Shown here one piece after another: positions 3,338 to 16,653 of a stretch of 64,000 nt of DNA. The DNA is from Granulicella sp. L46 (GTDB lineage: Bacteria > Acidobacteriota > Terriglobia > Terriglobales > Acidobacteriaceae): NCBI RefSeq assembly GCF_009765785.1, contig NZ_LMUT01000025.1, positions 1 through 64,000 of the forward strand, given 5' to 3'. The notes under the pieces are model-generated. The model saw only the letters and a list, made by a program, of their open reading frames with translations. It was not told the origin of the DNA and made no database searches. The stretch's first letter is position 1. Each line of letters begins with the position of its first letter. A program made the position numbers and the translations under genes.

Positions 3338-6196
3338 ATGCCGAACACGACGCATGCGAACACCACGCACCCGAACAGCTTCAACGCCGCCGCCACACTG
3401 GAGAGCGGCGCGAAGAAGGTGAACTACTACAAACTGAGCGCGCTTGAGGGAGTGAATCTCTCGCGCCTGCCGTACTCGCTGCGGATATTGCTGGAAAACC
3501 TGTTGCGCTGCGAAGACGGCAAGACCGTGACGGCGGACGACATTCGCTTTCTGGCGAGCTGGGATCCGAAGGCGGAGCCGTCGCGTGAGATTGCGTTCAT
3601 GCCTGCGCGTGTGCTGATGCAGGACTTTACGGGTGTACCCGCGGTGGTGGATCTGGCCGCGATGCGCGATGCGATGAAGGCGCTGGGCGGCGGGCAGGCG
3701 GAGATCGAGAAGATCAATCCGCTGGTGCCGGCCGAGTTGGTGATCGACCACAGCGTGCAGGTGGATGAGTATGGCAGCCCGTACTCGTATGACTTGAATG
3801 CGGCGCTGGAGTTTACGCGTAACCGCGAGCGCTATGCGTTTCTGAAGTGGGGGCAGACGGCGTTCCATAATTTTTCTGCAGTGCCGCCGGGGATGGGGAT
3901 CTGTCACCAAGTGAATTTGGAGTACCTGGCGCGCGTTACGTTTACGAAGACTGAGGCCGATGGAAGCGTGACGGCGTATCCGGATACGTTGGTGGGGACG
4001 GACTCGCACACGACGATGATCAATGGGCTGGGTGTGCTGGGGTGGGGCGTTGGCGGCATTGAAGCAGAGGCTGCGATGCTGGGTCAGCCGGTAAGCATGC
4101 TGGTGCCGCAGGTGGTTGGCTTCCGGCTGGAAGGGAAGTTGAAGGAAGGGACTACTGCCACGGATTTGGTGCTGACGGTTACGGAAGCGCTGCGCAAGCA
4201 TGGTGTTGTGGGCAAGTTTGTGGAGTTCTATGGGCCGGGCATCAGCGAGCTGCCGTTGGCGGATCGCGCGACGATTGCGAACATGGCCCCGGAGTATGGG
4301 GCGACGTGCGGGATCTTCCCGGTAGATGCGGAGACGTTGAAGTATCTGCGGCTGACGGGGCGGAGCGACGAGCAGATTGCGCTGGTCGAGGCTTATTACA
4401 AGGCGCAGGGATTGTTCCATACGGCGGGTGCTCCGGAGGCGGAGTACAGCGCTACGCTGAATTTGGATTTGAGCACGGTGGAGCCGAGCGTGGCGGGGCC
4501 GAAGCGGCCGCAGGATCGGGTGCTGTTGTCGCAGACTCCGAAGAGCTTTGCTTCAAAACTGGCCGAGCTGCAGGGTCCGAATGCGAACAAGAGCGTGGTG
4601 CGGCAGATGGTTCGCTGGGAGGGCGAGGGCGGGCATGCGTCGAAGGGCGGCGAGCTGGAGAGCTCGGTTGGCGTGATGGAGGCGGAAGGCGACGACGATG
4701 CGATGCACTCGGTGGAGAGACGGTTCGGTGTGAATCCGGAGAAGTATTTGACCGATGGCTCGATTGTGATTGCGGCGATTACGAGCTGTACGAATACGAG
4801 CAATCCGTACGTGATGGTGGCGGCGGGATTGCTGGCGAAGAAAGCTGTCGAGGCTGGATTGACGATGCCACCGTGGGTGAAGACGTCGCTGGCGCCGGGT
4901 TCGCGCGTGGTGACGGATTACTACACGCGGGCGGGGCTGCTGCCGTACCTGGAGGCGCTGCGGTTCAACGTGGTCGGATATGGATGCACGACGTGCATTG
5001 GCAACTCGGGACCGCTGCCTACGGATGTGTCGAAGGCGATTGAAGAGCATGGGCTGGTTGCGGTGTCAGTGTTGAGCGGGAATCGGAATTTTGAGGGACG
5101 GATCTCGCCGGAGGTAAGAGCGAATTATTTGATGAGTCCGCCGCTGGTGGTGGCGTATGCGCTGGCTGGACATATCTCGCATGACTTCGATCATGATGCG
5201 CTGGGCACAGGCAAGGATGGTCGGCGGGTTTACCTGAAGGACATCTGGCCGTCGCAGAAAGAGGTGTCGGATACGGTGGCTAGCTGCATTGACTCGACTA
5301 TGTTCCGGACGCAGTATGCGACGGTGAGCGATGGCGATACCAACTGGCAGCACTTGAAGTTTCCGCTGGGCGAGACGTATGGGTGGGAGAAGGATTCCAC
5401 GTATATCCGGAAGGCTCCTTACTTTGATGGCATGCCTGCGACGCCGGCCGAGGTAAAGGATATTGTCGACGCGCGGGTGCTGGCGGTGCTGGGCGATTCG
5501 GTGACGACGGACCATATTTCTCCGGCGGGATCGATCAAGCTGAACGGGCCGGCGGGGCAGTATCTGACTGAGCATGGGGTGAAGCCTTCGGACTTCAATT
5601 CGTATGGCTCGCGGCGCGGGAACCATGAGGTGATGGTGCGTGGAACGTTTGCCAATGTGCGGCTCCGGAACAAGTTGGCTCCGGGAACGGAAGGTGGCGT
5701 GACGCGGTTGCTGCCTGAGGGGACGGGGATGTCGATTTACGACGCTAGTGTTGAGTACGCGAAGCGCGGAACGCCGCTGGCGATTCTGGCGGGCAAGGAG
5801 TATGGGTCGGGGTCGAGCCGAGATTGGGCTGCGAAGGGTCCGTGTTTGCTGGGAATTCGGTTTGTGATTGCGGAGAGCTATGAGCGCATTCACCGGTCGA
5901 ACCTGGTGGGCATGGGGATTCTGCCGCTGCAGTTTGAGGAGGGCGCGAGCGTGGAATCGCTTGGATTGACGGGCGAGGAGACGTTTACGCTGGGCACGAA
6001 GACGGGTGAACTGAAGGCGATGCTGGACTCGAAGTTTGGGGGCGGCAAGGCGCTGACGGTGGTTGCGACGGCGGCCGATGGGACGAAAAAGACGTTCCCG
6101 GCGATGGTGCGCATTGATACGCCACAGGAGATCCTCTACTACCAGCACGGCGGGATTTTGCAGTACGTACTGCGGCAGTTGGCGGGGAAGGCGTAA
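3338..6196 (+). CDS. acnA: Aconitate hydratase A
   Basis: Interconverts citrate and isocitrate in the TCA cycle in the cytosol using a [4Fe-4S] cluster. The 952-residue protein starts at ATG 3338 ([15 protein letters not shown]), preceded by AGGAG 12 nt upstream; an in-frame start 22 codons earlier lacks such a site. The cluster ligands are visible: Cys484 in SCTNTSNP, then Cys550 and Cys553 in [12 protein letters not shown]. The 66- and 3-residue spacings are those of AcnA/IRP1-type aconitases. The C-terminal swivel domain has [17 protein letters not shown] and [13 protein letters not shown]. Length and order match AcnA rather than AcnB. The gene stands alone and ends in an intrinsic terminator at 6239-6267. 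Confidence 0.97.
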
Positions 6197-6238
6197 GGGG
6201 CGGTAACCAGAGTCGCAAATAACCATGTAGGGAACGGA

Positions 6239-6267
6239 CGGCGAGCTTGGCTTGGGCTCGCTGTTTT
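6239..6267 (+). terminator. Intrinsic terminator after acnA
   Basis: CGGCGAGC (6239-6246) pairs with GCTCGCTG (6256-6263) with one G-T wobble and a 9-nt loop, followed at once by TTTT. It lies 43 bp after the acnA stop and before trpC. Confidence 0.7.
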
Positions 6268-6298
6268 CCGTTGGGGGAGTACCGCGTTCAGGGGTAGC

Positions 6299-7138
6299 AT
6301 GGAGGGAATGCTGACGGATAGCTCAGAGCCGACGCTGTATCTGCCGGAGATTCTTGCGCATACGCGCGCGGTGGTGGCGGAACGGAAGGCGGCGGCAGAC
6401 ATGCGTTCGCTGGAGGCGGCGGCGGCGCGGCATGTTCCGCGTGGGTTTGCGAGGGCGCTGCGGGCGCGCAGTGGGCGTGGGGCGGCGGTGATTGCGGAGT
6501 TGAAGAAGGCGTCGCCGTCGAAGGGGCTGATCCGGGAGATGTTTGAGCCGGTAGAGATTGCGCTGCAGCTGGAGGCAGGCGGAGCGACGGCGCTGTCGGT
6601 GCTGACCGATGAGAAATTCTTCCAGGGGTCACTGGAGAATCTGCGACGGGCGAGTGCGGCGGTTTGGCTGCCGTGTCTGCGCAAGGACTTTATGGTGGAT
6701 GAGTTTCAGATGCTGGAGGCGCGGGCAAATCGAGCAGATGCGATTTTGCTGATTGTGGCGGCGCTTACAGATGCGGAGTTGAAAAGGCTGCGGGCGAGTG
6801 CGCGGTCGTATGGGCTGGATGTGTTGTGCGAGGTGCATGACGCGGAAGAGTTGAATCGCGCGCTTGAGCTGGAATGTGAGTGCGTCGGCGTGAATAGCCG
6901 CGATCTGCGAACGTTTGACGTGTCGCTCGAACGCGCATGCGAGCTGGCCGAGAAGCTGCCGAAGAGTGCTGTGCGCGTGGCGGAGAGCGGGATCCATACG
7001 CAGGCGGACATGCGCAAGCTGAGCGCGGCGGGGTACGAGGCGTTTTTGATTGGCGAGTCGCTGATGCGGGAGTCGCGACCGGGTGGGGCCCTGGCGAGTC
7101 TACTGCGTGGCGGTCTGAACCAAGTCAATGTTTATTAA
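6299..7138 (+). CDS. trpC: Indole-3-glycerol phosphate synthase
   Basis: Converts carboxyphenylamino-deoxyribulose phosphate to indole-3-glycerol phosphate in tryptophan synthesis. The 279-residue protein is a complete (beta/alpha)8 barrel: AVIAELKKASPSKGLI near residues 62-77 holds the catalytic Lys, CLRKDFMVDEFQ the second Lys, and NSRDLRTFDV and ESGIHT the phosphate-binding end. It is a monofunctional TrpC, not a TrpC-TrpF fusion. ATG 6299 follows AGGGG; a second in-frame ATG at 6308 would be too close to the GGAGGG. It overlaps trpF by 11 nt and opens the aromatic gene series. Confidence 0.96.
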   Translation: MEGMLTDSSEPTLYLPEILAHTRAVVAERKAAADMRSLEAAAARHVPRGFARALRARSGRGAAVIAELKKASPSKGLIREMFEPVEIALQLEAGGATALSVLTDEKFFQGSLENLRRASAAVWLPCLRKDFMVDEFQMLEARANRADAILLIVAALTDAELKRLRASARSYGLDVLCEVHDAEELNRALELECECVGVNSRDLRTFDVSLERACELAEKLPKSAVRVAESGIHTQADMRKLSAAGYEAFLIGESLMRESRPGGALASLLRGGLNQVNVY

Positions 7139-7808
7139 GATCTGTGCCAATACGAACCTGGAAGACGCGCGCCTGGCGGCGGAGCTTGGCGTGGATGCGG
7201 TAGGGTTTGTGTTTGCGGCGAGCAAGAGACGGGTGACTCCGGAGCAGGTGGCGGAGATTACGCGCGAGCTCCCGGCGGAGTTGGCAAAGGTGGGTGTGTT
7301 TACGTCGACCGATGCGGCAGAGATTGTGCGGACAGCGAGGGTTGCGGGGTTGACCGCGGTGCAGTTGCATAGCAGGTTTGATCCGAAGCTGGTGGATGCG
7401 ATTGATGCTGGGAGTGGCAGTGCGTTGCACGTGGTGCAAGTGGTCGACGTTCAGGTGGGAATGGATCTGGAGGAGCTGCAGTGGGTGTTGACGGCGGTGT
7501 TGTCGCACCCCTATGTGCTGGTGGCGTTGCTAGATGCTTCGCATGGGGGTGTATCGGGAGGGACGGGGATGAGCTTTGACTGGGACCGCACGGCGGCGGT
7601 GGTGCGGGAGGTGCAGGAGGCGACGGGGGGGTGGGTGATCGTGGCCGGAGGGCTGAATGCCGAGAATGTCGGCGAGGCGATTGAGGCGTTTGCGCCGTGG
7701 GGCGTGGATGTCGCGAGTGGGGTGGAGAGTGCGCCGGGGAAGAAGGATCCGGAGCGGCTGCGGGCGTTTGTGGCGGCGGCGAGGGCGGCCGGACAACGAG
7801 ATAGCTAG
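7128..7808 (+). CDS. trpF: Phosphoribosylanthranilate isomerase
   Basis: Catalyses the Amadori rearrangement of N-(5-phosphoribosyl)anthranilate, the step before TrpC. The 226-residue barrel starts with KICANTNLEDA, carrying the catalytic Cys in the usual KICG-like position, and has VGFVFAASKRRVT and a C-terminal AGGLNAENV / GVDVASGVES phosphate site with the late catalytic Asp. It overlaps the end of trpC by 11 nt, so translation is probably coupled. The next gene does not follow directly: a 224-bp control region with leader peptide and attenuator separates trpF from trpB. Confidence 0.95.
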   Translation: MFIKICANTNLEDARLAAELGVDAVGFVFAASKRRVTPEQVAEITRELPAELAKVGVFTSTDAAEIVRTARVAGLTAVQLHSRFDPKLVDAIDAGSGSALHVVQVVDVQVGMDLEELQWVLTAVLSHPYVLVALLDASHGGVSGGTGMSFDWDRTAAVVREVQEATGGWVIVAGGLNAENVGEAIEAFAPWGVDVASGVESAPGKKDPERLRAFVAAARAAGQRDS

Positions 7809-7837
7809 TTGCAGAGCTTTGGTTGCCGGTGTACATT
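7809..7837 (+). promoter_or_regulatory. Internal promoter candidate for the trpB-led segment
   Basis: TTGCAG (7809-7814) and TACATT (7832-7837) are separated by exactly 17 nt, starting at the base after the trpF stop. Each hexamer is only a partial consensus match. The predicted start, about 7 nt after the -10, falls on or next to the leader-peptide ATG at 7845, so the leader mRNA could be leaderless, which would explain the lack of a Shine-Dalgarno there. Confidence 0.5.
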
Positions 7838-7844
7838 GAAACCC

Positions 7845-7919
7845 ATGAAGTTTTTCTTCAGCCCGCGATTTACCCCGTCGTACCGCTACTGGCCTATCGT
7901 AGCGGCATCGGTGGAGTAG
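7845..7919 (+). CDS. Aromatic leader peptide (24 codons; Phe-, Tyr- and Trp-rich)
   Basis: A short ORF between trpF and trpB encoding MKFFFSPRF-TPSYRYWP and then seven more residues. Seven of 24 residues are aromatic: Phe at 3, 4, 5 and 9, Tyr at 13 and 15, Trp at 16. Such enrichment just ahead of an intrinsic terminator is the hallmark of ribosome-mediated attenuation (trpL, pheL). The Tyr13-Arg-Tyr15-Trp16 codons lie in or beside the first strand of the attenuator hairpin, so stalling there would change downstream folding. There is no Shine-Dalgarno; a -10-like TACATT ends 7 nt before the ATG, suggesting leaderless translation. The genes behind it make Trp, Phe and Tyr precursors, which fits a sensor of all three. 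Confidence 0.75.
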   Translation: MKFFFSPRFTPSYRYWPIVAASVE

Positions 7920-8000
7920 TTTCGCACGGACTGAAGCGTAGAACCTGCGATCTCTAGATTCCCCGAGCCGCGACCCTAAAGGTTGCGGCTTTCGTGTTTT
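7883..8000 (+). promoter_or_regulatory. Transcription attenuator (pause hairpin, antiterminator, terminator) before trpB
   Basis: Four pairing segments can be traced by hand. Segment 1, CCGCTAC (7883-7889, over Arg-Tyr codons), pairs with segment 2, GTAGCGG (7899-7905), leaving the Trp codon in the loop. Segment 2 can instead pair with segment 3: GCGGC (7902-7906) with GCCGC (7967-7971), and TCGG (7908-7911) with CCGA (7963-7966). Segment 3, AGCCGCGACC (7966-7975), forms the terminator with segment 4, GGTTGCGGCT (7981-7990), with one G-T pair, loop CTAAA and the T-rich tail TTCGTGTTTT. The 1:2 and 3:4 forms exclude the 2:3 form, as in enterobacterial trp attenuation. A ribosome stalled at Tyr15/Trp16 would mask segment 1 and favour read-through. 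Confidence 0.75.
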
Positions 8001-8032
8001 GTGGCAGCGGTTGTGATGAGGATGAAAACGTT

Positions 8033-9283
8033 ATGGGCACTACTGCATCGATGACTCGGCCGGCGGGTGTGGCGGCGAATAGTACGCCGGGAAGGTTTGG
8101 CGCGTATGGCGGGCGGTATGTTCCGGAGACGCTGATGGCGGCGCTGCTGGAGCTCGATGCCGCGTATGCGGAGGCACAGGCGGATGCGGCGTTTCATGCG
8201 GAGTTAGATGGGTTGCTCAAGGATTATTGCGGGCGTCCTACGCCGCTGTACTTTGCGAAGCGGCTGACGGAGACGCTGGGTGGGGCGAAGATTTATTTGA
8301 AGCGCGAAGATCTGCTACACACGGGCGCGCACAAGATTAATAACGCGCTGGGGCAGGTGATGCTGGCTCGGCGAATGGGGAAACAGCGGATTATCGCGGA
8401 GACGGGCGCGGGGCAGCATGGGGTGGCGACGGCGACAGTGTGTGCGCTGTTTGGGCTGGAATGCGTGGTCTACATGGGCGAGGAAGACATGCGGCGGCAG
8501 GAGCTGAATGTGTTTCGGATGCGGCTGCTCGGCGCTGAGGTACGTGGGGTTGCGTCGGGGTCGGCGACGTTGAAGGACGCGATCAATGAGGCGATGCGGG
8601 ACTGGGTTACCAATGTCCGATCTACTTTTTATATTTTGGGGAGCGCCCTTGGGTCGCATCCGTATCCGACGATGGTTCGGGATTTTCAGCGTGTGATTTC
8701 GAAGGAGATGAAGCGGCAGATTTTGGAGCATGAAGGACGGTTGCCCGATACGGTGATTGCTTGCGTGGGTGGGGGATCGAATGCGATTGGTGCGTTCTAT
8801 GAGTTTTTGCCGGAGCCGAATGTTGCGCTGATTGGTGTGGAGGCTGGTGGTCGGGGGACGGCGCTGGGCGAACATGCGGCGCGGTTTGCGCCCAATGGCG
8901 GCGGCGTTCCGGGGGTGTTGCAGGGGACGTACAGCTATGTGCTGCAGGATGCGGCGGGACAGATTGCGGCTACGCACTCGGTGAGCGCGGGGTTGGATTA
9001 TGCGAGTGTGGGGCCGGAGCATGCGATGCTGCATGACTCGGGGCGGGCTACGTACACGAGTGCGACGGATGATGAGGCGCTGGAGGCGGTGAAGGTGCTG
9101 TCGCGGACGGAGGGGATTATTCCGGCGCTTGAGAGCGCGCATGCGATTGCCGAGGTGATGAAGCTGGCTCCGAAGGTGGGGAAAGAGAAGATTGTGATTG
9201 TGAATGTTAGCGGGCGCGGGGATAAGGACATCGGGATTTTGACGCGCGAGATGAAATTGGATGGAGCGGAGGTACGTCGATGA
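8033..9283 (+). CDS. trpB: Tryptophan synthase beta subunit
   Basis: Condenses indole with serine, using PLP, in the TrpA2B2 complex. With ATG 8033 the protein is 416 residues; GAGG 12 nt upstream supports this start, and an in-frame start at 7994 falls inside the attenuator tail. The PLP lysine is Lys101 in HTGAHKINN; the glutamate of the AETGAGQHG motif and the phosphate-binding GGGSNAIG are present. It begins 33 nt after the attenuator T-tract, so its transcription should depend on read-through or on the internal promoter. Its stop overlaps the next ATG (ATGA at 9280). Confidence 0.97.
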
Positions 9284-9651
9284 CCGCTGCTAGCAATGAC
9301 ACGCGAACTCTTGTGGCTGGATGGATTGAAAGCTGGAACGCGCGCGACCTGGACGGCATCATGACGCATTATGCGGACGGCGTTGTGTTTGAAGCGAGCA
9401 CCGTGGTGTCGCGTTGGAATCGGCCTGATGGTCGATTGCATGGCGCGGCTGAACTGCGAGAACATTTTCGGCATGGACTGGGGCTGGCGCCGACGCTGCA
9501 CTTCGAGTTGGAGGAAGTGTTTACTGCTCCCAGCGGATACGCAGCGCTCTACCGCCGCGATAACGATAACCGCGTCCTCGACGTTGTGGAATTAAACGAA
9601 GAAGGGAAGGCCATCGCAGTGAAGGCTTACTATCTTGAGGCGCAGGCCTGA
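9280..9651 (+). CDS. NTF2-like (SnoaL-like) fold protein embedded between trpB and trpA
   Basis: A 123-residue cytosolic protein of the NTF2/SnoaL-like fold: an N-terminal helix ([20 protein letters not shown]), then the [10 protein letters not shown] segment and beta strands ending in [19 protein letters not shown]. The ATG overlaps the trpB stop (ATGA), and trpA starts 2 nt after its stop, so it is translated as part of the unit. Members of this fold are small-molecule isomerases or binding proteins; nothing here tells which. Its place between two subunits of one enzyme suggests a role near tryptophan synthesis or simple hitch-hiking; this is inference. Confidence 0.8.
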
Positions 9652-9652
9652 T

Positions 9653-10429
9653 ATGCCGATTCGATTCTCAAAGCGTCCAGGTCTGGTGATTTACTTTACG
9701 GCGGGTGATCCTGATCTGGCGACTACGTGCGAGATGGCGATTGCGGCTATCGACAATGGGGCGGATGTGATTGAGCTGGGGGTGCCGTTCAGCGACCCGC
9801 TGGCGGATGGGCCGGTGATTCAGCGGGCTAGTGAGCGGGCGGTTGCGAAAGGAACGCGGCTTACCGATGTGCTGCGGATCTGCAGGGAGATTCGCGCGGC
9901 GCGAGCTGAGGCTGGGATTATTTTGTTCAGCTACTTGAACCCGGTGTTGCAGATGGGGCTGGAGAAGTTTGCGAAGGCGGCGAAAGAGGCGGGCGCGGAT
10001 GGGGTTCTGCTGACCGACATGATCGTCGAAGAGGCCGAGGAGTATTTGAAGGTGATGCACGCGACGGGGCTGATGCCGGTGTTCCTGGCGGCGCCTACTT
10101 CGCCGGATGAGCGGTTGAAGGCGATTGCGGAGAACTCGCAGGGGTTTGTGTATGCAATTTCGCGGGTGGGGATTACGGGAACGCAGACGGAGCTGGCGTC
10201 GGATGCGAAGGGGCTGGTCGAGAGGCTAAGGAAGTTTACGAAGCTGCCGATTGCGTTGGGGTTTGGGGTGTCGACGCCGGGGCATGTGCGGGCGGTGGGA
10301 GAGTTTGCGGATGCGGCGGTAGTGGGCAGCGCGATTGTGGGGTTGATAGAGAAGACGCCAGCGACTGAGGCGCCGCGGGCGGTTGGAGAGTTTGTTCGCA
10401 GCTTGTGCGGCGGAGTGAAAAGCGCATGA
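9653..10429 (+). CDS. trpA: Tryptophan synthase alpha subunit
   Basis: Cleaves indole-3-glycerol phosphate to indole, which is channelled to TrpB. ATG 9653 (MPIRFSKRPGLVIYFTAGDPD) is preceded by GAGG about 12 nt upstream and gives a 258-residue barrel; an in-frame TTG at 9635 lies inside the previous gene. The catalytic region ELGVPFSDPLADGPVIQ carries the conserved Glu and Asp, and GFGVSTPGHV is the phosphate loop. It follows the NTF2-like gene with almost no gap. Confidence 0.96.
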   Translation: MPIRFSKRPGLVIYFTAGDPDLATTCEMAIAAIDNGADVIELGVPFSDPLADGPVIQRASERAVAKGTRLTDVLRICREIRAARAEAGIILFSYLNPVLQMGLEKFAKAAKEAGADGVLLTDMIVEEAEEYLKVMHATGLMPVFLAAPTSPDERLKAIAENSQGFVYAISRVGITGTQTELASDAKGLVERLRKFTKLPIALGFGVSTPGHVRAVGEFADAAVVGSAIVGLIEKTPATEAPRAVGEFVRSLCGGVKSA

Positions 10430-10502
10430 GAGCGGCGTGTAACACGTATCATTATGTCAGGCCATTGAACGCGCGGCGGCTGTTGGTTCCGCGCCTTAAC
10501 CC

Positions 10503-10539
10503 AGTCTGGAAAGCAACTACAGGGCGTCACTTCCAGACT
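10503..10539. repeat. Inverted repeat between trpA and aroQ
   Basis: AGTCTGGAA (10503-10511) pairs perfectly with TTCCAGACT (10531-10539) around a 19-nt loop in the 166-bp gap before aroQ. There is no following T-tract, so a processing site, regulator site or mRNA stability hairpin is as likely as a terminator. Confidence 0.55.
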
Positions 10540-10595
10540 AGCTTTGCAGGCACAACTATCTTTGCGAGCAGAGAGCGCTCGCGGCATGAGGCAGC

Positions 10596-10859
10596 ATGGA
10601 CATTTCGGATTGGCGGGACAAGATTGATGGGCTGGATGAGCAGATCGTCCGGTTGCTTTCTCAACGAGCGGCAGCGGCGGTTGAGATTGGGAAGTTGAAG
10701 GCAAAGATCAACGTTCCGATCTACGAACCGATGCGGGAGCAGACTGTGTTTGATCACGTGCGGAGTGTGAATCCGGGACCGCTTACGGACGCGCAGGTGC
10801 AGGACATTTATGAACGGGTGATGGACGTGATGCGTGCGTTACAGCGTCAGCAGCCTTGA
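10596..10859 (+). CDS. aroQ: Chorismate mutase, AroQ class
   Basis: Rearranges chorismate to prephenate, the branch leading to Phe and Tyr. The 87-residue protein is the minimal all-alpha AroQ fold: WRDKIDGLDEQIVRLLSQR supplies the first active-site Arg/Asp helix, KLKAKINVPIYEPMRE the central Lys/Arg segment, and the C-terminal helix ends VMDVMRALQ. It is not fused to DAHP synthase or a dehydrogenase, but it lies directly upstream of an aroF-type DAHP synthase, and such pairs can form complexes. The start ATG 10596 has only a weak upstream purine stretch. Confidence 0.92.
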   Translation: MDISDWRDKIDGLDEQIVRLLSQRAAAAVEIGKLKAKINVPIYEPMREQTVFDHVRSVNPGPLTDAQVQDIYERVMDVMRALQRQQP

Positions 10860-10945
10860 TTTGAGATGTGCGGACGCGGCCCTGGGTTGTTGGCCGCGCT
10901 GCCAAGCAGTGAAAATTTTATTGAGGACTACAGAGGGATCCAGTG

Positions 10946-11989
10946 ATGATCGTCGCGATGCAGGACCAAGCCACCGATGAACAGATTCAGCATGTGATTG
11001 AGCGGATGGTTGAGTTGGGATTCAATGTCCACCGGACAACGGGTGAGACGCAGACCATTCTTGCGGGCGTGGGAACGCCGGCGCACTTTGAGGTGACGGA
11101 GTTCCAGGTGCTGTCGGGCGTGCACCAGGCTTACCGCATCTCGTCGCCGTATAAGCTGGCGGGACGCGGATTCCGGCCGGAGGGAACGCGGATTACGTTT
11201 CCGAATGGGCTGGTGGTGGGTGGCGATGAGGTCGTCATCATGTCCGGGCCGTGCTCGGTCGAGAGTCGCGAGCAGATTCGCCTGAGTGCGCAGCAGGTGG
11301 CTGCGGCGGGCGCACAGTTTTTGCGTGGCGGCGCGTTCAAGCCGCGCAGCTCTCCGTACAGCTTCCAGGGTATGGGTTTGGAAGGGCTGAAGCTGCTGCG
11401 CGAAGTGTCCGATGAATTTGGACTGCTGGTGATCACCGAGGTGATGGAGATCTCGCAGATTGAGTTGATGCTGCCGTACATCGATTGCTTCCAGGTAGGC
11501 GCGCGCAACATGCAGAACTTTAATCTACTGCGCGAGCTTGGCCATGTGCGCAAGCCGGTGCTGCTGAAGCGCGGCATTGCGGCGACGATTGAAGAGGTGC
11601 TGTTGAGCGCGGAATATATTCTGTCGGGCGGCAATTACGATTTGATGTTGTGCGAGCGCGGCATTCGTACCTTCGAGACGTACACGCGGAATACGTATGA
11701 TGTGTCGGCGATTCCGGTGCTGAAGAAGTTGACACATCTGCCGGTGCTGGGCGATCCGTCGCACGGCGTGGGCAAGCGCGATTTGGTTCCGCCGATGGCG
11801 TTGGCGAGCGTGGCTGCGGGTGCGGATGGATTGCTGATGGAGATGCATCCGAATCCGGATAAGGCGCTGTCGGATGGTGCGCAGTCGTTGTATCCGGAGC
11901 AGTTGACGAAACTGGTGGAGAAGCTGCGGCGGCTGGCGCCGATTGTCGATCGAACGATTGCACCGGCTGTTTCGCAGATCCATGCGTAG
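10946..11989 (+). CDS. aroF: 3-deoxy-7-phosphoheptulonate (DAHP) synthase with N-terminal regulatory domain
   Basis: Condenses phosphoenolpyruvate and erythrose-4-phosphate, the first step of the shikimate pathway. The 347-residue protein has an N-terminal ferredoxin-like/ACT-like domain (roughly residues 1-70, MIVAMQDQATDEQIQHVIER) that in this subfamily mediates feedback control, then the barrel with SGPCSVESREQI, GARNMQNFNLLRE, KRG and GDPSHGVGKRDLV. ATG 10946 is used because AGAGGG lies 8 nt upstream; a GTG overlaps it at 10943. Together with aroQ and tyrA it makes the segment behind the attenuator relevant to Phe, Tyr and Trp. Confidence 0.95.
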   Translation: MIVAMQDQATDEQIQHVIERMVELGFNVHRTTGETQTILAGVGTPAHFEVTEFQVLSGVHQAYRISSPYKLAGRGFRPEGTRITFPNGLVVGGDEVVIMSGPCSVESREQIRLSAQQVAAAGAQFLRGGAFKPRSSPYSFQGMGLEGLKLLREVSDEFGLLVITEVMEISQIELMLPYIDCFQVGARNMQNFNLLRELGHVRKPVLLKRGIAATIEEVLLSAEYILSGGNYDLMLCERGIRTFETYTRNTYDVSAIPVLKKLTHLPVLGDPSHGVGKRDLVPPMALASVAAGADGLLMEMHPNPDKALSDGAQSLYPEQLTKLVEKLRRLAPIVDRTIAPAVSQIHA

Positions 11990-12008
11990 GAATTATTAGG
12001 AGAAGGCC

Positions 12009-12839
12009 TTGCATCGGATTGTCGTCAAACTTGGAACGAATGTGATCATGCGGCACGACGGCAAAGTTGCGCTGGGGCTGCTGTGCGGGCTGGTAGAGCA
12101 GGTTGCCGAGTTGCGCGCGCAGGGTATCGAAGTGCTGCTGGTAAGCTCCGGCGCGGTCGGCTTGGGGATGGAGCGACTGGGGTTGCTGGAGCGACCTACG
12201 GTGGTGGCGCAGATCCAGGCGTGCGCGGCGATTGGGCAGTCGCGGCTGATGTCGCTTTATGACGATGCGTTCGATCGGCTGGGGTGTCCGATTGCGCAGG
12301 TGCTGCTGACCGAGGATGATTTTCGCGATGCTACGCGGCATGCGAATCTGCGCGCGGCGTTGGATGCGCTGCTGACGATGGGCGTGATTCCGATTGTGAA
12401 TGAGAACGATACGGTGTCGACGATTGAGCTGGATCGGGCAACGGATTTGCGGCCGCGGGAGAGAATTTTTGGGGACAACGATAAGCTGTCGGCGCTGCTG
12501 CTGAAGCATATCGGTGGGGATCTGCTGGTGCTGTTGTCGGATGTGGATGGGTTGTATGACCGCAATCCGACGGAGCCCGGGGCAGTGGTGTTGAAGCAGG
12601 TGGATGCGGTCGACGACGCTATTCTGGCGCTGGCGGATGGGGTGAATGGGCGTGGGCGCGGAGGGATGATCTCGAAGCTCGAGTCGGCGCGCATTGTGCT
12701 GCATGCGGGCAAGCAGGTGATTATTGCCAATGGCCGGACGCCGCATGTGCTGGAGCGGATTGTTGCGGGTGAGAGGGTGGGCACGCTGTTTGCGGCGGTG
12801 AAGATGCAGGAGCCGTCGCAGGAGAAAGTGGCGCGATGA
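12009..12839 (+). CDS. proB: Glutamate 5-kinase, short form without PUA domain
   Basis: Phosphorylates glutamate in the first step of proline synthesis. The start is TTG 12009, immediately after AGGAGAAGG with about 6 nt spacing. The 276-residue protein holds the complete amino-acid-kinase domain (VVKLGTN, LLVSSGAVGLG, NENDTVST, FGDNDKLSALL, DVDGLYDRNP, GRGGMISKLESAR) but stops before the C-terminal PUA domain present in longer enzymes such as that of E. coli (about 367 residues). It overlaps proA by ATGA. Its position inside an aromatic cluster is unusual. Confidence 0.93.
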   Translation: MHRIVVKLGTNVIMRHDGKVALGLLCGLVEQVAELRAQGIEVLLVSSGAVGLGMERLGLLERPTVVAQIQACAAIGQSRLMSLYDDAFDRLGCPIAQVLLTEDDFRDATRHANLRAALDALLTMGVIPIVNENDTVSTIELDRATDLRPRERIFGDNDKLSALLLKHIGGDLLVLLSDVDGLYDRNPTEPGAVVLKQVDAVDDAILALADGVNGRGRGGMISKLESARIVLHAGKQVIIANGRTPHVLERIVAGERVGTLFAAVKMQEPSQEKVAR

Positions 12840-14170
12840 GCGCGGCGGCTTCTTCGGAGGGGAGCGGGCAGGGTGTGCGCGCGATGGCCGAGGCGGCGAA
12901 GGGTGCTTCGCGAGTGCTTGCGGCGCTGGATGGAGCGAAGAGGAATGCTGCGCTCGAGGAGATGGCGCTGGCTGTTGAAGGTGCGAGTGCGGAGTTGCTG
13001 GCTGCGAATGCGGAGGACGTGCGGGCTGAGGGTGGAAGTTTAAGTGCAGCTACGTTGGCGCGGCTGAAGCTGGATGCCGCGAAGCTTGCGGAGATGGCGG
13101 AGCAGGTGTGGTCGGTGGCGCGGTTGCCTGATCCGCTTGGGCGAAGGCTGGATGCAATCGAACTGGATGAAGGGCTTAATCTTACGAAGATCAGCGTGCC
13201 GCTGGGAGTGCTGGCCGTGATCTTTGAGGCGCGGCCGGATGCGGTGACGCAGATTGTGGCGCTGGCGATTAAGAGCGGGAATTCGGTGTTGCTGAAGGCG
13301 GGGAAAGAGGTGGAGAGGACGGCGGGCGTGCTGGTGCGGGTGCTTCGCGAAGCGCTAGTGGGGGAGGGATTGCCTGCGGATGCGGTGTCGCTGGTGGTGG
13401 GACGGGAGCGAGTGCAGGAGTTGCTCGGGATGCATGGGCTGGTGGACCTGGTGATCCCACGCGGGTCGAAGGAGTTGGTGGAGTATGTGCAGGCGAACAC
13501 GCGGATACCGGTGCTGGGGCATGCAGAGGGAGTTTGCCATATCTACGTGGATGAGAGCGCGGATGAGGCGCTGGCGCTGCAGGTGATTGAGGATGCCAAG
13601 ACCGACTATCCGGCGGCGTGCAATGCGGTGGAGACCGTGCTGGTGCATCGCGGGATTGCGGCTGAGTTTCTGCCGAAGCTGGCAGAGCATCTTAGGGCGA
13701 AGGGCGTCAGGCTGCACGGAGATGCTACGGTGCGGGAGTTGTTGCGCGGGGTCGAGGTGGAGGCGGTCGAGGATTGGCATACAGAGTATGGCGAGTTGGC
13801 GGTTTCGTTGGGGGTCGTGACGGGGGTGGAGGGCGCGATGGAGCACATTCATGCGCACGGGTCGTCGCATACGGAGAGTGTTATCGCCGAGGATGCGGTT
13901 GTGGCGGAGCGGTTCCTGCGCGAGGTGGATGCGGCGAGCGTGATGCATAACGCGTCGACTCGGTTTGCGGATGGGTTTCGGTATGGGTTCGGCGCGGAGG
14001 TGGGGATCAGCACGAGCAAGCTGCATGCGCGCGGGCCGGTTGGGTTGGAAGGATTGACGACATATAAGTATGTGCTGCGTGGGAAGGGTCAGGTTGCGGG
14101 AGATTATCGGGTCTCGAAAGAGACGGGTGAGCATGTAAAGGCGTTCACTCACAGGCGGGAGGCGCGATGA
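12836..14170 (+). CDS. proA: Gamma-glutamyl phosphate reductase
   Basis: NADPH-dependent reduction of gamma-glutamyl phosphate to glutamate semialdehyde, the second proline step. The 444-residue protein has the aldehyde-dehydrogenase fold; the catalytic Cys lies in DYPAACNAVETVLVH, with IFEARPDAVTQI and KAGKE in the cofactor region. It overlaps proB upstream and tyrA downstream, each by ATGA, so the three are translationally coupled. Confidence 0.96.
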   Translation: MSAAASSEGSGQGVRAMAEAAKGASRVLAALDGAKRNAALEEMALAVEGASAELLAANAEDVRAEGGSLSAATLARLKLDAAKLAEMAEQVWSVARLPDPLGRRLDAIELDEGLNLTKISVPLGVLAVIFEARPDAVTQIVALAIKSGNSVLLKAGKEVERTAGVLVRVLREALVGEGLPADAVSLVVGRERVQELLGMHGLVDLVIPRGSKELVEYVQANTRIPVLGHAEGVCHIYVDESADEALALQVIEDAKTDYPAACNAVETVLVHRGIAAEFLPKLAEHLRAKGVRLHGDATVRELLRGVEVEAVEDWHTEYGELAVSLGVVTGVEGAMEHIHAHGSSHTESVIAEDAVVAERFLREVDAASVMHNASTRFADGFRYGFGAEVGISTSKLHARGPVGLEGLTTYKYVLRGKGQVAGDYRVSKETGEHVKAFTHRREAR

Positions 14171-15051
14171 ACAAGGTGCTGATTGTGGGGACAGGATTGA
14201 TTGGGGCTTCCGTGGGATTGGCCCTGAAGGCCAATGGATTTGAGGGTGAGGTCGCGGGGTGGGATGCGAACGCGGAGGAGTTGAAGAAGGCGCTCGAGTG
14301 CAAGGCGATTGATCGGGCGCTGGAGCGGCGTGAGGCCGTGCTGGAGACGGACGCGGATGTTGTCGTGCTGGCCACTCCGGTGCTGCCGATATTGGACTGG
14401 ATGCAGCAGCTGGCTCCGAAGCTGAAGGAGACGCAGCTGGTGACCGATGTGGGGAGCACGAAGGGCGAGATTACTGCGTTGGCGGGGAAGCTGTTCAATC
14501 AACCTGAAGGCGCGCAGACTGGCCGGGCGCGGTTCTTGCCGGGACATCCGATGGCGGGGAAGGAGTCGGGCGGCGCTGCGCTGGCGGAGGCGGATTTGTT
14601 TCGCGGGGCGACTTGGCTGTTTTGCTCGGGCGCGGGATGGATGGCCGGGGGTGAGTTGGAGATGGAGTGGCGGAAGTGGGTGGTGCGGATGGGCGCGGTG
14701 ATGCGGGAGCTGGATCCGGCGCGGCACGACGAGGTGTGCGCATGGGTGAGCCATCTGCCGCAGATGCTGGCTACTGCGCTGTCTGCTGAGCTTCAAGACC
14801 GATTTGCGGATGACCGCGAGGGGATGGCAGCGGTGCAGGCGATTGGCGGGCGGGCGCTGCGGGAGATGACTCGGCTGGGAGCTAGCCCGTATAGCATGTG
14901 GCGCGATGTGGCGATGACGAATACGAAGGCGATTGCGGAGACGCTGGGGGCGCTCGAACAACGTCTGGCGCATGTGCGCGAGAATTTGAAGACTCCTGAG
15001 CTGCGGGATGAGTTTGCTAAGGCGAACAAGTTTCGAGCGACGCGCAGCTAA
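14167..15051 (+). CDS. tyrA: Prephenate dehydrogenase
   Basis: Oxidative decarboxylation of prephenate to 4-hydroxyphenylpyruvate for tyrosine synthesis. The N-terminal Rossmann motif is GTGLIGASVGLALK (residues 8-21), followed by VVVLATPVLPILDW, VTDVGSTKGEI and the substrate-site FLPGHPMAGKESGGA, then the helical dimer domain. The 294-residue length fits a TyrA without an ACT domain; aroQ is a separate gene upstream. It is the last gene of the coupled series. Confidence 0.94.
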   Translation: MNKVLIVGTGLIGASVGLALKANGFEGEVAGWDANAEELKKALECKAIDRALERREAVLETDADVVVLATPVLPILDWMQQLAPKLKETQLVTDVGSTKGEITALAGKLFNQPEGAQTGRARFLPGHPMAGKESGGAALAEADLFRGATWLFCSGAGWMAGGELEMEWRKWVVRMGAVMRELDPARHDEVCAWVSHLPQMLATALSAELQDRFADDREGMAAVQAIGGRALREMTRLGASPYSMWRDVAMTNTKAIAETLGALEQRLAHVRENLKTPELRDEFAKANKFRATRS

Positions 15052-15054
15052 CGG

Positions 15055-15118
15055 GGTCCTGCGCGGACGGTGACGGACTTCACGTAGTGAGACCGCGGAA
15101 GAGAGAGGCGGCTAGAAT
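15055..15118 (+). repeat. Dispersed repeat copy A (GTCC-N5-GGAC hairpin through TAGAAT box)
   Basis: Starts with GGTCCTGCGCGGACGG, which recurs exactly at 16654, and ends in TAGAAT 58 nt later. The first part can fold as GTCC/GGAC, and the end resembles a -10 box for the hydrolase gene at 15184. The copy begins just after the tyrA stop. Confidence 0.55.
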
Positions 15119-15183
15119 TGGTGCGCCAATGCAGTGGATAGTTGGGCGCTGCGAACAGATCCTGATTTTGCGGAGTGAAGCTT

Positions 15184-16653
15184 ATGCGTTTGGGATGCGG
15201 GCGAGGGTTGGCGGCGGTTTTCTTGTGGGCGGGGGTTCCTGCTCTTGTGGCGCAGACGGCCGCGCCTTCTGCTGAGACGCGGCGGCACATTGAGCGGGTG
15301 GAGGCGGGGTTGGTGGAGCCGGTCATTCTGAAGGGCGATGCGCATGCTGCGCACACGTTGCAGGAACGGATGGCGGCGCTGCATGTCCCGGGGGTGAGCA
15401 TCGCCGTGATTCATCATGGCGTGATTGAGTGGGCGCAGGGGTTCGGGGTGATGAAGGTCGGTGGGCCTGCCGTGACGGCCGAGACGTTGTTCCAGGCTGG
15501 GTCGATCAGCAAGCCGGTGGCGGCGATGGCGGCGTTGAAGCTGGTGCAGGAGGGGAAGCTATCGCTGGATGCGGATGTGAATACGGAGCTGAAGAGTTGG
15601 AAGCTGCCGTATGGACCTGAGGCGAAGGGTAAGGTGGTGACGCTGAGGGAGCTGCTGACGCATACCGGCGGGACTACGGTGCACGGGTTTCCCGGGTATG
15701 CGCTTGGGGAGCCGGTGCCGACGCTGGTGCAAGTGCTGAATGGGGAGAAGCCGGCGAACACTCCGGCGATTCGTGTGGAGGCGGAGCCGGGGACGAGGTG
15801 GAATTATTCGGGTGGTGGGATCACGATCATGCAGTTGATGATGATCGACGCGAGCGGTGAGGCGTTTCCGAAACTGCTGCACGATACTGTGCTGGCGCCG
15901 ATTGGGATGACGCATAGTACGTATCAACAGCCGCTGCCGGAGGATTGGAAAGCGATGGCGGCGACCCCGTACGAGCACGATGGGACGCCGGTTGTAGGGG
16001 GAGCGCATACGTATCCGGAGATGGCGGCGGCTGGATTATGGACGACGCCTACGGATTTGGCGAAGTATGAGATTGAGGTGGAGCGGTCGTTGGTGGGGGA
16101 GGCGAATCATGTGCTGTCGAAAGAGATGACGGTGCAGATGCTTACGCCGGGCATGGGCGATTGGGGGCTGGGAGTTCAGATCGGCGGGAGCAAGACTGAT
16201 CCGTACTTTGCGCATGGCGGGGTGAATGAGGGCTTCGAGTCTAACTTTACTGCGTATGAGAAAGGTGGCGAGGGCGCAGTGGTGATGACCAATGCGCAGG
16301 GCGGAGGAAGGCTGGCCGATGAAGTGATGCGTAGTATTGCCGCGGAGTATGGGTGGGCCGATTTGAAGCCGGAGGTGCGGACCGCGGTGACCGTAGATCC
16401 GAAGATTCTTGCGGAGTATGTGGGGACGTATGAGGTGCGGCCGGGGTTTGAAATTGTGCTCGCGATGAAGGTCGGACACCTGGTGGCAAGCGCGACGGGG
16501 GAGAGCGAGGCGGCGGTAATTGCGGAGTCGCCGACGAAGTTCCTGGTGCCGGAGGTTGGCGCAGAGTTCGAGTTCGTTCCGGATGCGCAGGGGAAGGTGA
16601 CCTACCTTGTTCTGAACCCGGGCGGCCGGAACATGAAGGCCATGAAGAAGTAG
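15184..16653 (+). CDS. Exported class C beta-lactamase-fold serine hydrolase
   Basis: A periplasmic or secreted penicillin-binding-protein-like hydrolase (beta-lactamase/esterase family); the substrate is unknown. ATG 15184 follows GGAG with 8-nt spacing and gives 489 residues with a signal peptide ending near VPALVAQT. The catalytic SxxK is S107-I-S-K110, the tyrosine motif is Y208-S-G, and HGGVNEGF takes the place of the third active-site box. A C-terminal extension after about residue 380 (DUF3471-like position) is typical of esterase-type members. It is transcribed alone, behind a TAGAAT box. Confidence 0.88.
   Translation: MRLGCGRGLAAVFLWAGVPALVAQTAAPSAETRRHIERVEAGLVEPVILKGDAHAAHTLQERMAALHVPGVSIAVIHHGVIEWAQGFGVMKVGGPAVTAETLFQAGSISKPVAAMAALKLVQEGKLSLDADVNTELKSWKLPYGPEAKGKVVTLRELLTHTGGTTVHGFPGYALGEPVPTLVQVLNGEKPANTPAIRVEAEPGTRWNYSGGGITIMQLMMIDASGEAFPKLLHDTVLAPIGMTHSTYQQPLPEDWKAMAATPYEHDGTPVVGGAHTYPEMAAAGLWTTPTDLAKYEIEVERSLVGEANHVLSKEMTVQMLTPGMGDWGLGVQIGGSKTDPYFAHGGVNEGFESNFTAYEKGGEGAVVMTNAQGGGRLADEVMRSIAAEYGWADLKPEVRTAVTVDPKILAEYVGTYEVRPGFEIVLAMKVGHLVASATGESEAAVIAESPTKFLVPEVGAEFEFVPDAQGKVTYLVLNPGGRNMKAMKK

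Follow-up and report, generated by a model that had tools for sequence, protein, structure and literature searches.

A predicted leaderless, mixed-aromatic transcription attenuator upstream of trpB in Granulicella and its relatives among the Acidobacteriota

The trpB gene of Granulicella sp. L46 is very probably preceded by a ribosome-mediated transcription attenuator of the classical type, in a mixed-aromatic and leaderless form. Classical attenuation is a textbook mechanism, in which a short leader reading frame, a set of alternative RNA pairings and an intrinsic terminator act together. The site (7809-8033) lies within a 64-kb stretch of genomic DNA that was analysed as a whole (hereafter, the window), and its features are listed in Table 1.

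Table 1. Coordinates of the attenuator, the genes behind it and a second attenuator of the same genome.
Feature	Coordinates	Strand	Remarks
Predicted attenuator promoter	7809-7837	+	TTGCAG 7809-7814, 17 nt spacer, TACATT 7832-7837
Leader ORF	7845-7919	+	ATG at 7845, TAG at 7917-7919
Strand 1, CCGCTAC	7883-7889	+	Over codons 13-15 (Tyr-Arg-Tyr); partner strand 2
Strand 2, GTAGCGGCATCGGTGGAG	7899-7916	+	Partner strand 1 or strand 3 (antiterminator)
Strand 3, CCCCGAGCCGCGACC	7961-7975	+	Partner strand 2 (antiterminator) or strand 4 (terminator, whose 5' arm starts at 7965)
Strand 4 and T-rich tail	7981-8000	+	Strand 4 is 7981-7991; 3' half of the intrinsic terminator (whole terminator 7965-8000; stem 7965-7991, 11 pairs, then T-rich tail)
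trpB	8033-9283	+	Tryptophan synthase beta; first structural gene
SnoaL-like ORF	9280-9651	+	Between trpB and trpA
trpA	9635-10429	+	TTG-started ORF; true start may be slightly further in
aroQ	10596-10859	+	Chorismate mutase type II
aroF	10946-11989	+	DAHP synthase
proB	12009-12839	+	Amino acid kinase family
proA	12836-14170	+	Aldehyde dehydrogenase family
tyrA	14167-15051	+	Prephenate dehydrogenase
Second own-genome attenuator (L196)	G000:C37:116602-116753	-	Before aroK (shikimate kinase); leader MNLRPTTGRFSYCYWYPQRPGGLVRFSDHP

The leader ORF, MKFFFSPRFTPSYRYWPIVAASVE, contains four Phe, two Tyr and one Trp codon among its 24 codons, just as the original prediction had it, and the candidate control codons are Phe3-5, Phe9, Tyr13, Tyr15 and Trp16. 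The mutually exclusive hairpins and the intrinsic terminator that had been proposed are likewise present, with 33 nt between the T-rich tail and the trpB ATG (8033). Strand 1 pairs with strand 2 (1:2; 7883-7889 with 7899-7905; duplex -10.6 kcal/mol), strand 2 with strand 3 (2:3; 7899-7906 with 7967-7974, with one mismatch, extended by 7910-7914 with 7961-7964; duplex -22.3 kcal/mol), and strand 3 with strand 4 (3:4; 7965-7975 with 7981-7991; duplex -19.5 kcal/mol). The 2:3 antiterminator is exclusive with 3:4, and the 1:2 protector overlaps the control codons.

The segment 7840-8005 folds better than its dinucleotide shuffles (z -3.4), with 1 of 200 shuffles equally good. The binomial probability of at least seven aromatic residues in 23 codons is 2.4e-4 (at the aromatic frequency of 5.8% in nine nearby CDS); at least seven aromatics are also present in 4 of 533 ATG ORFs of 15-40 codons on both strands of the 64-kb window, and chance is expected to yield one terminator-like site in the 1.1 kb scanned. 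Because of these four ORFs and the one chance terminator expected, neither an aromatic-rich ORF nor a terminator suffices singly as proof, and it is comparative conservation that decides. Searches against Rfam returned no match at the gathering threshold in the window and none at E up to 1 in 7780-8060, riboswitches, the T-box and any leader included; the attenuator RNA family is absent from Rfam 15.

We propose that RNA polymerase would start at or next to the leader ATG, and that the ribosome would load at the 5' end of the resulting leaderless mRNA. With Phe-, Tyr- and Trp-tRNAs charged, the ribosome would pass Trp16 and cover strand 2, 3:4 would form, and transcription would stop near 7995-8000. 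A ribosome waiting at an aromatic codon up to and including Trp16 would cover strand 1 or its outer arm and leave strand 2 free, such that 2:3 would form before strand 4 is made and transcription would read through into trpB-trpA-aroQ-aroF-proBA-tyrA. If no ribosome loads, 1:2 would mostly form in the window leader and the default would be termination. Equilibrium folding of the full-length leader always prefers the terminator, so the switch must be kinetic, with 2:3 forming before strand 4 exists. Known attenuation systems are likewise kinetic.

Conservation was examined with TrpB as bait in 101 genomes (that of the window included), 95 of which gave a match; since the loci were found by TrpB, their upstream regions are unselected for a leader. 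Among the 28 genomes of the genus a TrpB locus was found in 23 (one of them in two pieces), and one more has a weak match only. The leader is present at all 22 congeneric trpB loci with a readable start. At the remaining locus (L019) the leader start is masked by N and the rest is visible; L019 was left out of the genus alignment (A1) and of the leader tables, and L032 was left out of A1. The leader peptide and the pairings are kept in the genus, which supports the attenuator reading. In other genera recovered by the same search the leader is often missing, being present at one of seven trpB loci inspected by eye and by ORF scan (L032, genome G058). A detector of a short ORF plus terminator found no terminator upstream of trpB at 40 loci of other genera and families, but this detector is uncalibrated and demands 6 T in 8, and its negative result is given no weight here. 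The genome of the window carries a second ATGAARTTYTTYTTY match (C37:189140), which was set aside, there being no sign of a leader in the sequence viewed. The Trp repressor family PF01371 has no match in the 28 genus genomes, with the control matching in E. coli and B. subtilis, and regulation of the trp genes by TrpR is accordingly disfavoured.

The placement of the aromatic codons was evaluated by a stall scan, in which the ribosome footprint was masked for each A-site codon, the transcript was folded before strand 4 is made, and only strand 2 was scored as a partner of the terminator arm. In the window leader the probability of 2:3 pairing, P(2:3), ranges from 0.50 to 1.00 when the ribosome stalls at codons 1-15 (0.96-1.00 at codons 8-15) and is 0.79 at Trp16, 0.03 at Pro17 and 0 after that; with a mask one nt shorter and the maximum taken instead of the mean, the permissive edge shifts to Pro17. 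A stall at the leader stop codon gives a P(2:3) of 0, so a finishing ribosome would permit the terminator. Without a ribosome the window leader has a P(2:3) of 0.26; across leaders, values under 0.5 are reached by only 71 of 130, so the default state is not uniform. Among the TrpB-found leaders (21 distinct, 20 of them congeneric plus that of G058) the permissive side, which extends up to and includes the last permissive codon, contains 127 of the 137 aromatic codons versus 185 of 346 others, and permutation gives a mean of 89.5 (sd 4.7) and a maximum of 107 of 137 in 5000. Across 120 distinct leaders of the wider family described below, 700 of 794 aromatic and 1067 of 2361 other codons are permissive (permutation maximum 483 in 2000), and the aromatic fraction, 0.75 and 0.66 over the final two permissive codons, drops to 0.38 at the next and to at most 0.05 for the following seven. 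The 21-leader set is the clean test, as the larger set came from a model containing the codon sequence; the scan comprises 130 leaders when L163 (N in the leader) is omitted, and 128 when L222 and L227 (no permissive run) are omitted too. In these simulations the control codons sit where a stalled ribosome would free strand 2, and the aromatics end where coverage of strand 2 starts.

Which of the three amino acids would be sensed was considered by aligning 23 congeneric leaders on the Trp codon, including a G003 leader found by the model. The TGG codon is kept in all 23 and is unpaired in all three states, and the codon at -1 is Tyr in 22 of the 23. The element might sense Trp and Tyr only, with Tyr13, Tyr15 and Trp16 as control codons and the 5' Phe codons reflecting the U-rich, unstructured start of a leaderless message; we regard this as a genuine possibility, if clearly the less probable one. 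Phe3-5 vary among the congeners, in contrast to a nearly fixed R-Y-W end, and one congeneric leader (G026) has a single Phe, Phe9, all of which would fit such a sensor. However, the codon at -3 is Phe in 15 leaders, Tyr in 7 and Leu in 1, indicating that a control position can take either Phe or Tyr, and the aromatic codons are enriched across the whole permissive stretch. Codon placement and conservation therefore favour the mixed sensor that had been suggested at the outset: Phe, Tyr and Trp are likely all sensed by the MKFFFSPRFTPSYRYWPIVAASVE leader, with the response to Tyr and Trp probably stronger than that to Phe, given the lesser conservation of Phe3-5.

Transcription is predicted to start at 7845 or within a few nt, i.e. 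at the leader ATG. In the 50 nt 5' of this ATG only six positions are invariant at 22 of 22 congeneric loci, TTG and TAnnnT, and their spacing is that of a sigma-70 pair (17-18 nt by hand count). The distance from the end of the -10-like hexamer to the leader ATG is 6-9 nt at 21 of the 22 loci; in G014 it is 12 nt, or 9 nt to another ATG three nt upstream. Neither the consensus promoter scan of the window called the 7809-7837 promoter nor is its sequence close to consensus (7/12 by eye), and since the scan missed it the assignment rests on conservation. Among 131 pooled leaders, TTG-N16..19-TAnnnT is present 4-10 nt before the ATG in 75, versus 0.6% of mononucleotide-shuffled upstream sequence, and its frequency differs by target (trpB 53/57, aroK 11/22, aroF 9/30, pheA 1/19). 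AGGA or GAGG within 5-14 nt of the leader start is present in 5 of the 131. These sequences support the leaderless design well for the trpB leaders, partly for those of aroK and aroF, and not for those of pheA.

A leaderless trp attenuator has a counterpart in Sinorhizobium meliloti, where the RNA 5' end of trpL-trpE(G) coincides with the leader ATG, the peptide has 14 aa, and Trp alone is concerned (PMC7298713). The likeness to the Granulicella element is in the leaderless form, which is predicted here; the differences are that the S. meliloti element is a Trp-only device, lies before trpE(G) and belongs to the Alphaproteobacteria. The S. meliloti attenuator also gives rise to a trans-acting sRNA and peptide (rnTrpL and peTrpL; PMC7298713), raising the prospect that in Granulicella, too, the leader peptide or the short RNA left by termination acts in trans, possibly besides a role in cis. 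Nothing in the sequence demands a trans role, however, and we consider one improbable.

The pairings of the attenuator are reflected in the alignments of its relatives. In the genus alignment (21 distinct rows) 1:2 and 3:4 are paired in 96% of cells versus 29-50% in slid controls. Three cells are changed on both sides, all of them belonging to the same pair of 3:4, and 1:2 has no compensatory change; 2:3 is paired in 88% versus 39-57% when slid, with no covariation among these 21 rows, the core strands being near-invariant. Such near-invariance is expected, as each strand has two partners and one strand is also coding, but it is not positive covariation. In the family alignment (98 elements, 97 distinct; structure 1:2 plus 3:4) 95.5% of cells are paired and both sides are changed in 78 cells, versus 18.3 +- 3.2 in shuffles (none of 500 reaching 78) and at most 24 when slid; this alignment was fitted to the covariance model and is thus biased to the model structure, the shuffles ignore relatedness, and only 1:2 and 3:4 were counted. 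Twenty family sequences have a change from C-G to U-A at the inner pair of 1:2, for instance L114 and L139, in which a Tyr codon changed from TAC to TAT is matched by a change from GTA to ATA in strand 2. The expectation of compensatory changes in relatives is thus borne out for 1:2 and 3:4 in the wider family and not for 2:3, which has none in the genus; the alignments support the former two by covariation and the latter by its near-invariance and the slid control.

Codon usage within the strands reflects the same constraint. In 18 of 19 congeneric leaders the Val of strand 2 is encoded by GTA, a codon making up 5% of the Val codons in nine nearby CDS, and CGC encodes the Arg of strand 1 in all 23, a bias that reflects an RNA-level constraint. 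This bears on the idea that the peptide itself stalls the ribosome in response to a free aromatic amino acid, in the manner of TnaC, for which conservation of the peptide beyond its aromatic codons (RYW..VAA) would speak. The conserved non-aromatic residues fall mostly in the paired strands 1 and 2 and use these odd codons (GTA, CGC), the unpaired residues after Trp vary (six and eight different amino acids at the two codons that follow it in the 23 congeneric leaders) and the C-terminal part differs across the family, which makes a nascent-peptide arrest most unlikely.

The attenuator was originally placed between trpF and trpB, and this describes the window, where the -35 hexamer (7809) directly follows the trpF stop codon (7806-7808), and not the genus as a rule: trpF ends within ~120 nt of the leader at 5 of the 23 congeneric loci, and at the other 18 it is more distant or absent from the up to 1.5 kb viewed. 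As trpF adjoins at so few loci, the element belongs with trpB. An ordinary trpCF terminator followed by an independent trpB promoter and a chance ORF, to which the position just behind trpF and the one chance site expected in 1.1 kb would lend themselves, has very little probability, since leader, spacing and pairings persist where trpF does not adjoin and the conserved promoter is 5' of the terminator and not 3' of it. Rather than lying inside a trp series, as first thought, the attenuator, with its own conserved promoter, appears to head a transcription unit of its own, trpB-trpA-aroQ-aroF-proBA-tyrA, and for an attenuator before trpB there is a precedent in the candidate attenuator of the trpB2A operon of Corynebacterium diphtheriae (PMC1262725). 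TrpF (7128-7808) is ~49-58% identical to its congeners over at least 200 residues, compared with 81-89% over at least 130 residues for TrpC and 83-95% for TrpB, from which it follows that trpF evolves fast or was exchanged.

The downstream genes anticipated for the unit (trpB, trpA, aroQ, aroF, tyrA) are all there, and proB and proA lie inside it too. These two proline genes are situated between aroF and tyrA in the same series, and their names are an interpretation going beyond the Pfam class. The 5' end of the SnoaL-like ORF overlaps trpB, and its 3' end may overlap trpA as well. A perfect 9-bp inverted repeat (AGTCTGGAA / TTCCAGACT), found by eye, is present at 10503-10539 in the trpA-aroQ gap. 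Transcription may be continuous to tyrA, but weak terminator-like sites lie inside the series, a scan of 6000-15400 giving 7 sites versus 6.1 in shuffles. For 41 of the 42 genomes queried, the top DAHP synthase match is located 2.5-3.9 kb behind a trpB leader and on its strand; G289 has no trpB leader among the matches listed. No second DAHP synthase match at E up to 1e-30 is present in 40 of the 42. The window genome encodes a second, divergent DAHP synthase (G000:C5:322836-323573) that is 50% identical over 238 residues, and one other of the 42 also has a second match at this threshold.

The attenuator is part of a wider family. Genomes with a match to a covariance model (R1) number 27 of 28 in the genus and 136 of 300 in the family, the latter representing 31 of 79 genera; a second model built from the 98 elements (R2) has matches in 111 of the 399 genomes of the class and 33 of the 297 of the phylum, 26 of these 33 belonging to the window's own family. 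From the opened part of these matches (60 regions, then 40, plus some further loci) we assembled 131 leaders; many further listed matches, most second matches in the genus included, lie outside the opened set. The pooled set was freed of L115 (the leader of L114 in another genome) and L123 (the same place as L117), and the 131 exclude L224 (cut at a contig end) and L209, whose start codon is too far upstream for the rule and which has a chorismate mutase-like frame downstream. Outside the counts are also the repeats L082-L105, except L087, and the further loci L183-L195. Six model matches (L197-L201 and L203; E 3.9e-4 to 0.004) were rejected as plain terminators or coding sequence and not leaders.

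By downstream gene the 131 leaders comprise 57 before trpB, 30 before aroF, 22 before aroK and 19 before pheA, with none of these in view for 3. All but two (129/131) precede trpB, aroK, aroF (DAHP synthase), pheA or aroQ-pheA/aroF, and the two without a gene (L087 and L220) are at contig ends. The chorismate mutase gene aroQ is the first gene in 18 of the 131, these being 14 of the 19 leaders before pheA, 3 of those before aroF, and L177. For the leaders found by the models, trpB, aroK, aroF, pheA or aroQ is behind 106 of 108, two being at contig ends, and as the downstream gene is outside the model this gives independent support. The window genome itself contains a second attenuator, L196, of the same design as that of trpB.

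The codon content of the leaders varies with the target gene. Trp is present in 57 of 57 trpB leaders, 22 of 22 aroK leaders, 24 of 30 aroF leaders and 4 of 19 pheA leaders (Fisher's test, trpB versus pheA 1.4e-12 and aroF versus pheA 7.8e-5, phylogeny being ignored and 18 of the 19 pheA cases coming from other families). Those 18 (L205, L210-L212, L214-L219, L222, L223, L225, L226, L228 and L233-L235), from other Acidobacteriota families, are Phe/Tyr-rich leaders before prephenate dehydratase (e.g. FAFTYRF, FYFYFYF), often with chorismate mutase as the first gene and with Trp in 4 of 18. Leaders far from the family (f27, f30 and f34; e.g. FYFYFYF) may be independent inventions.

The trp and pheA attenuators of E. 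coli have a leader ORF with cognate codons, strands pairing as 1:2, 2:3 and 3:4, an intrinsic terminator before the first structural gene, and a single cognate amino acid. The Granulicella element resembles them in its leader with cognate codons, its three pairings and its terminator before the first structural gene. It differs from both in that its leader has Phe, Tyr and Trp codons, probably no Shine-Dalgarno sequence, and a stop codon behind strand 2, and in that the series it precedes mixes trp, common-pathway and tyr genes. The E. coli pheST leader is Phe-rich and controls a tRNA synthetase; it is not a mixed sensor that includes Trp, unlike the Granulicella leader. The pheST operon is named in PMC1262725, which describes candidate classical trp attenuators in Corynebacterium and Streptomyces, with a conserved complementary triple in the strands and UGG repeats; ahead of operons for phenylalanine or tyrosine its authors saw no RNA structure that was conserved. 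The candidate attenuator before a trpB-type operon and the complementary triple are shared with Granulicella, and the UGG repeats and the absence of such structures at phenylalanine and tyrosine operons are the differences. PMC4833913 covers leader-gene distances in many phyla including Acidobacteria, its main text being without the words Granulicella, trpB and aromatic, and the regulated operons of Shewanella include pheA, aroF and aroH (PMC2659441). We found no description of an aromatic attenuator in the Acidobacteriota in the literature covered, most subscription journals being outside that coverage, such that absence is not proven. New, as far as we can tell, are a leader that combines Phe, Tyr and Trp codons, a predicted leaderless design within the Acidobacteriota, the trp-aro-tyr series downstream, and a dispersed family of such elements.

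On balance we think it probable that in much of the Acidobacteriota the aromatic pathway is under a dispersed and largely leaderless family of attenuators with one architecture, without TrpR where tested, and with a codon mix tuned per operon (Phe, Tyr and Trp for the trpB-aroF-tyrA series and for aroK, Phe and Tyr with Trp mostly absent for aroQ-pheA, and a mixture for aroF). One leader would integrate the charging of three tRNAs, and a shortage of any one would open the common pathway. If a single leader with the codons of all three aromatic amino acids heads a series of trp, common-pathway and tyr genes, it would serve as an integrating sensor; with this element also placed before aroK, aroF and pheA, attenuation would bind these genes into a regulon. 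This gives a testable account of aromatic control in the Acidobacteriota, with natural variants whose codon content follows the target gene.
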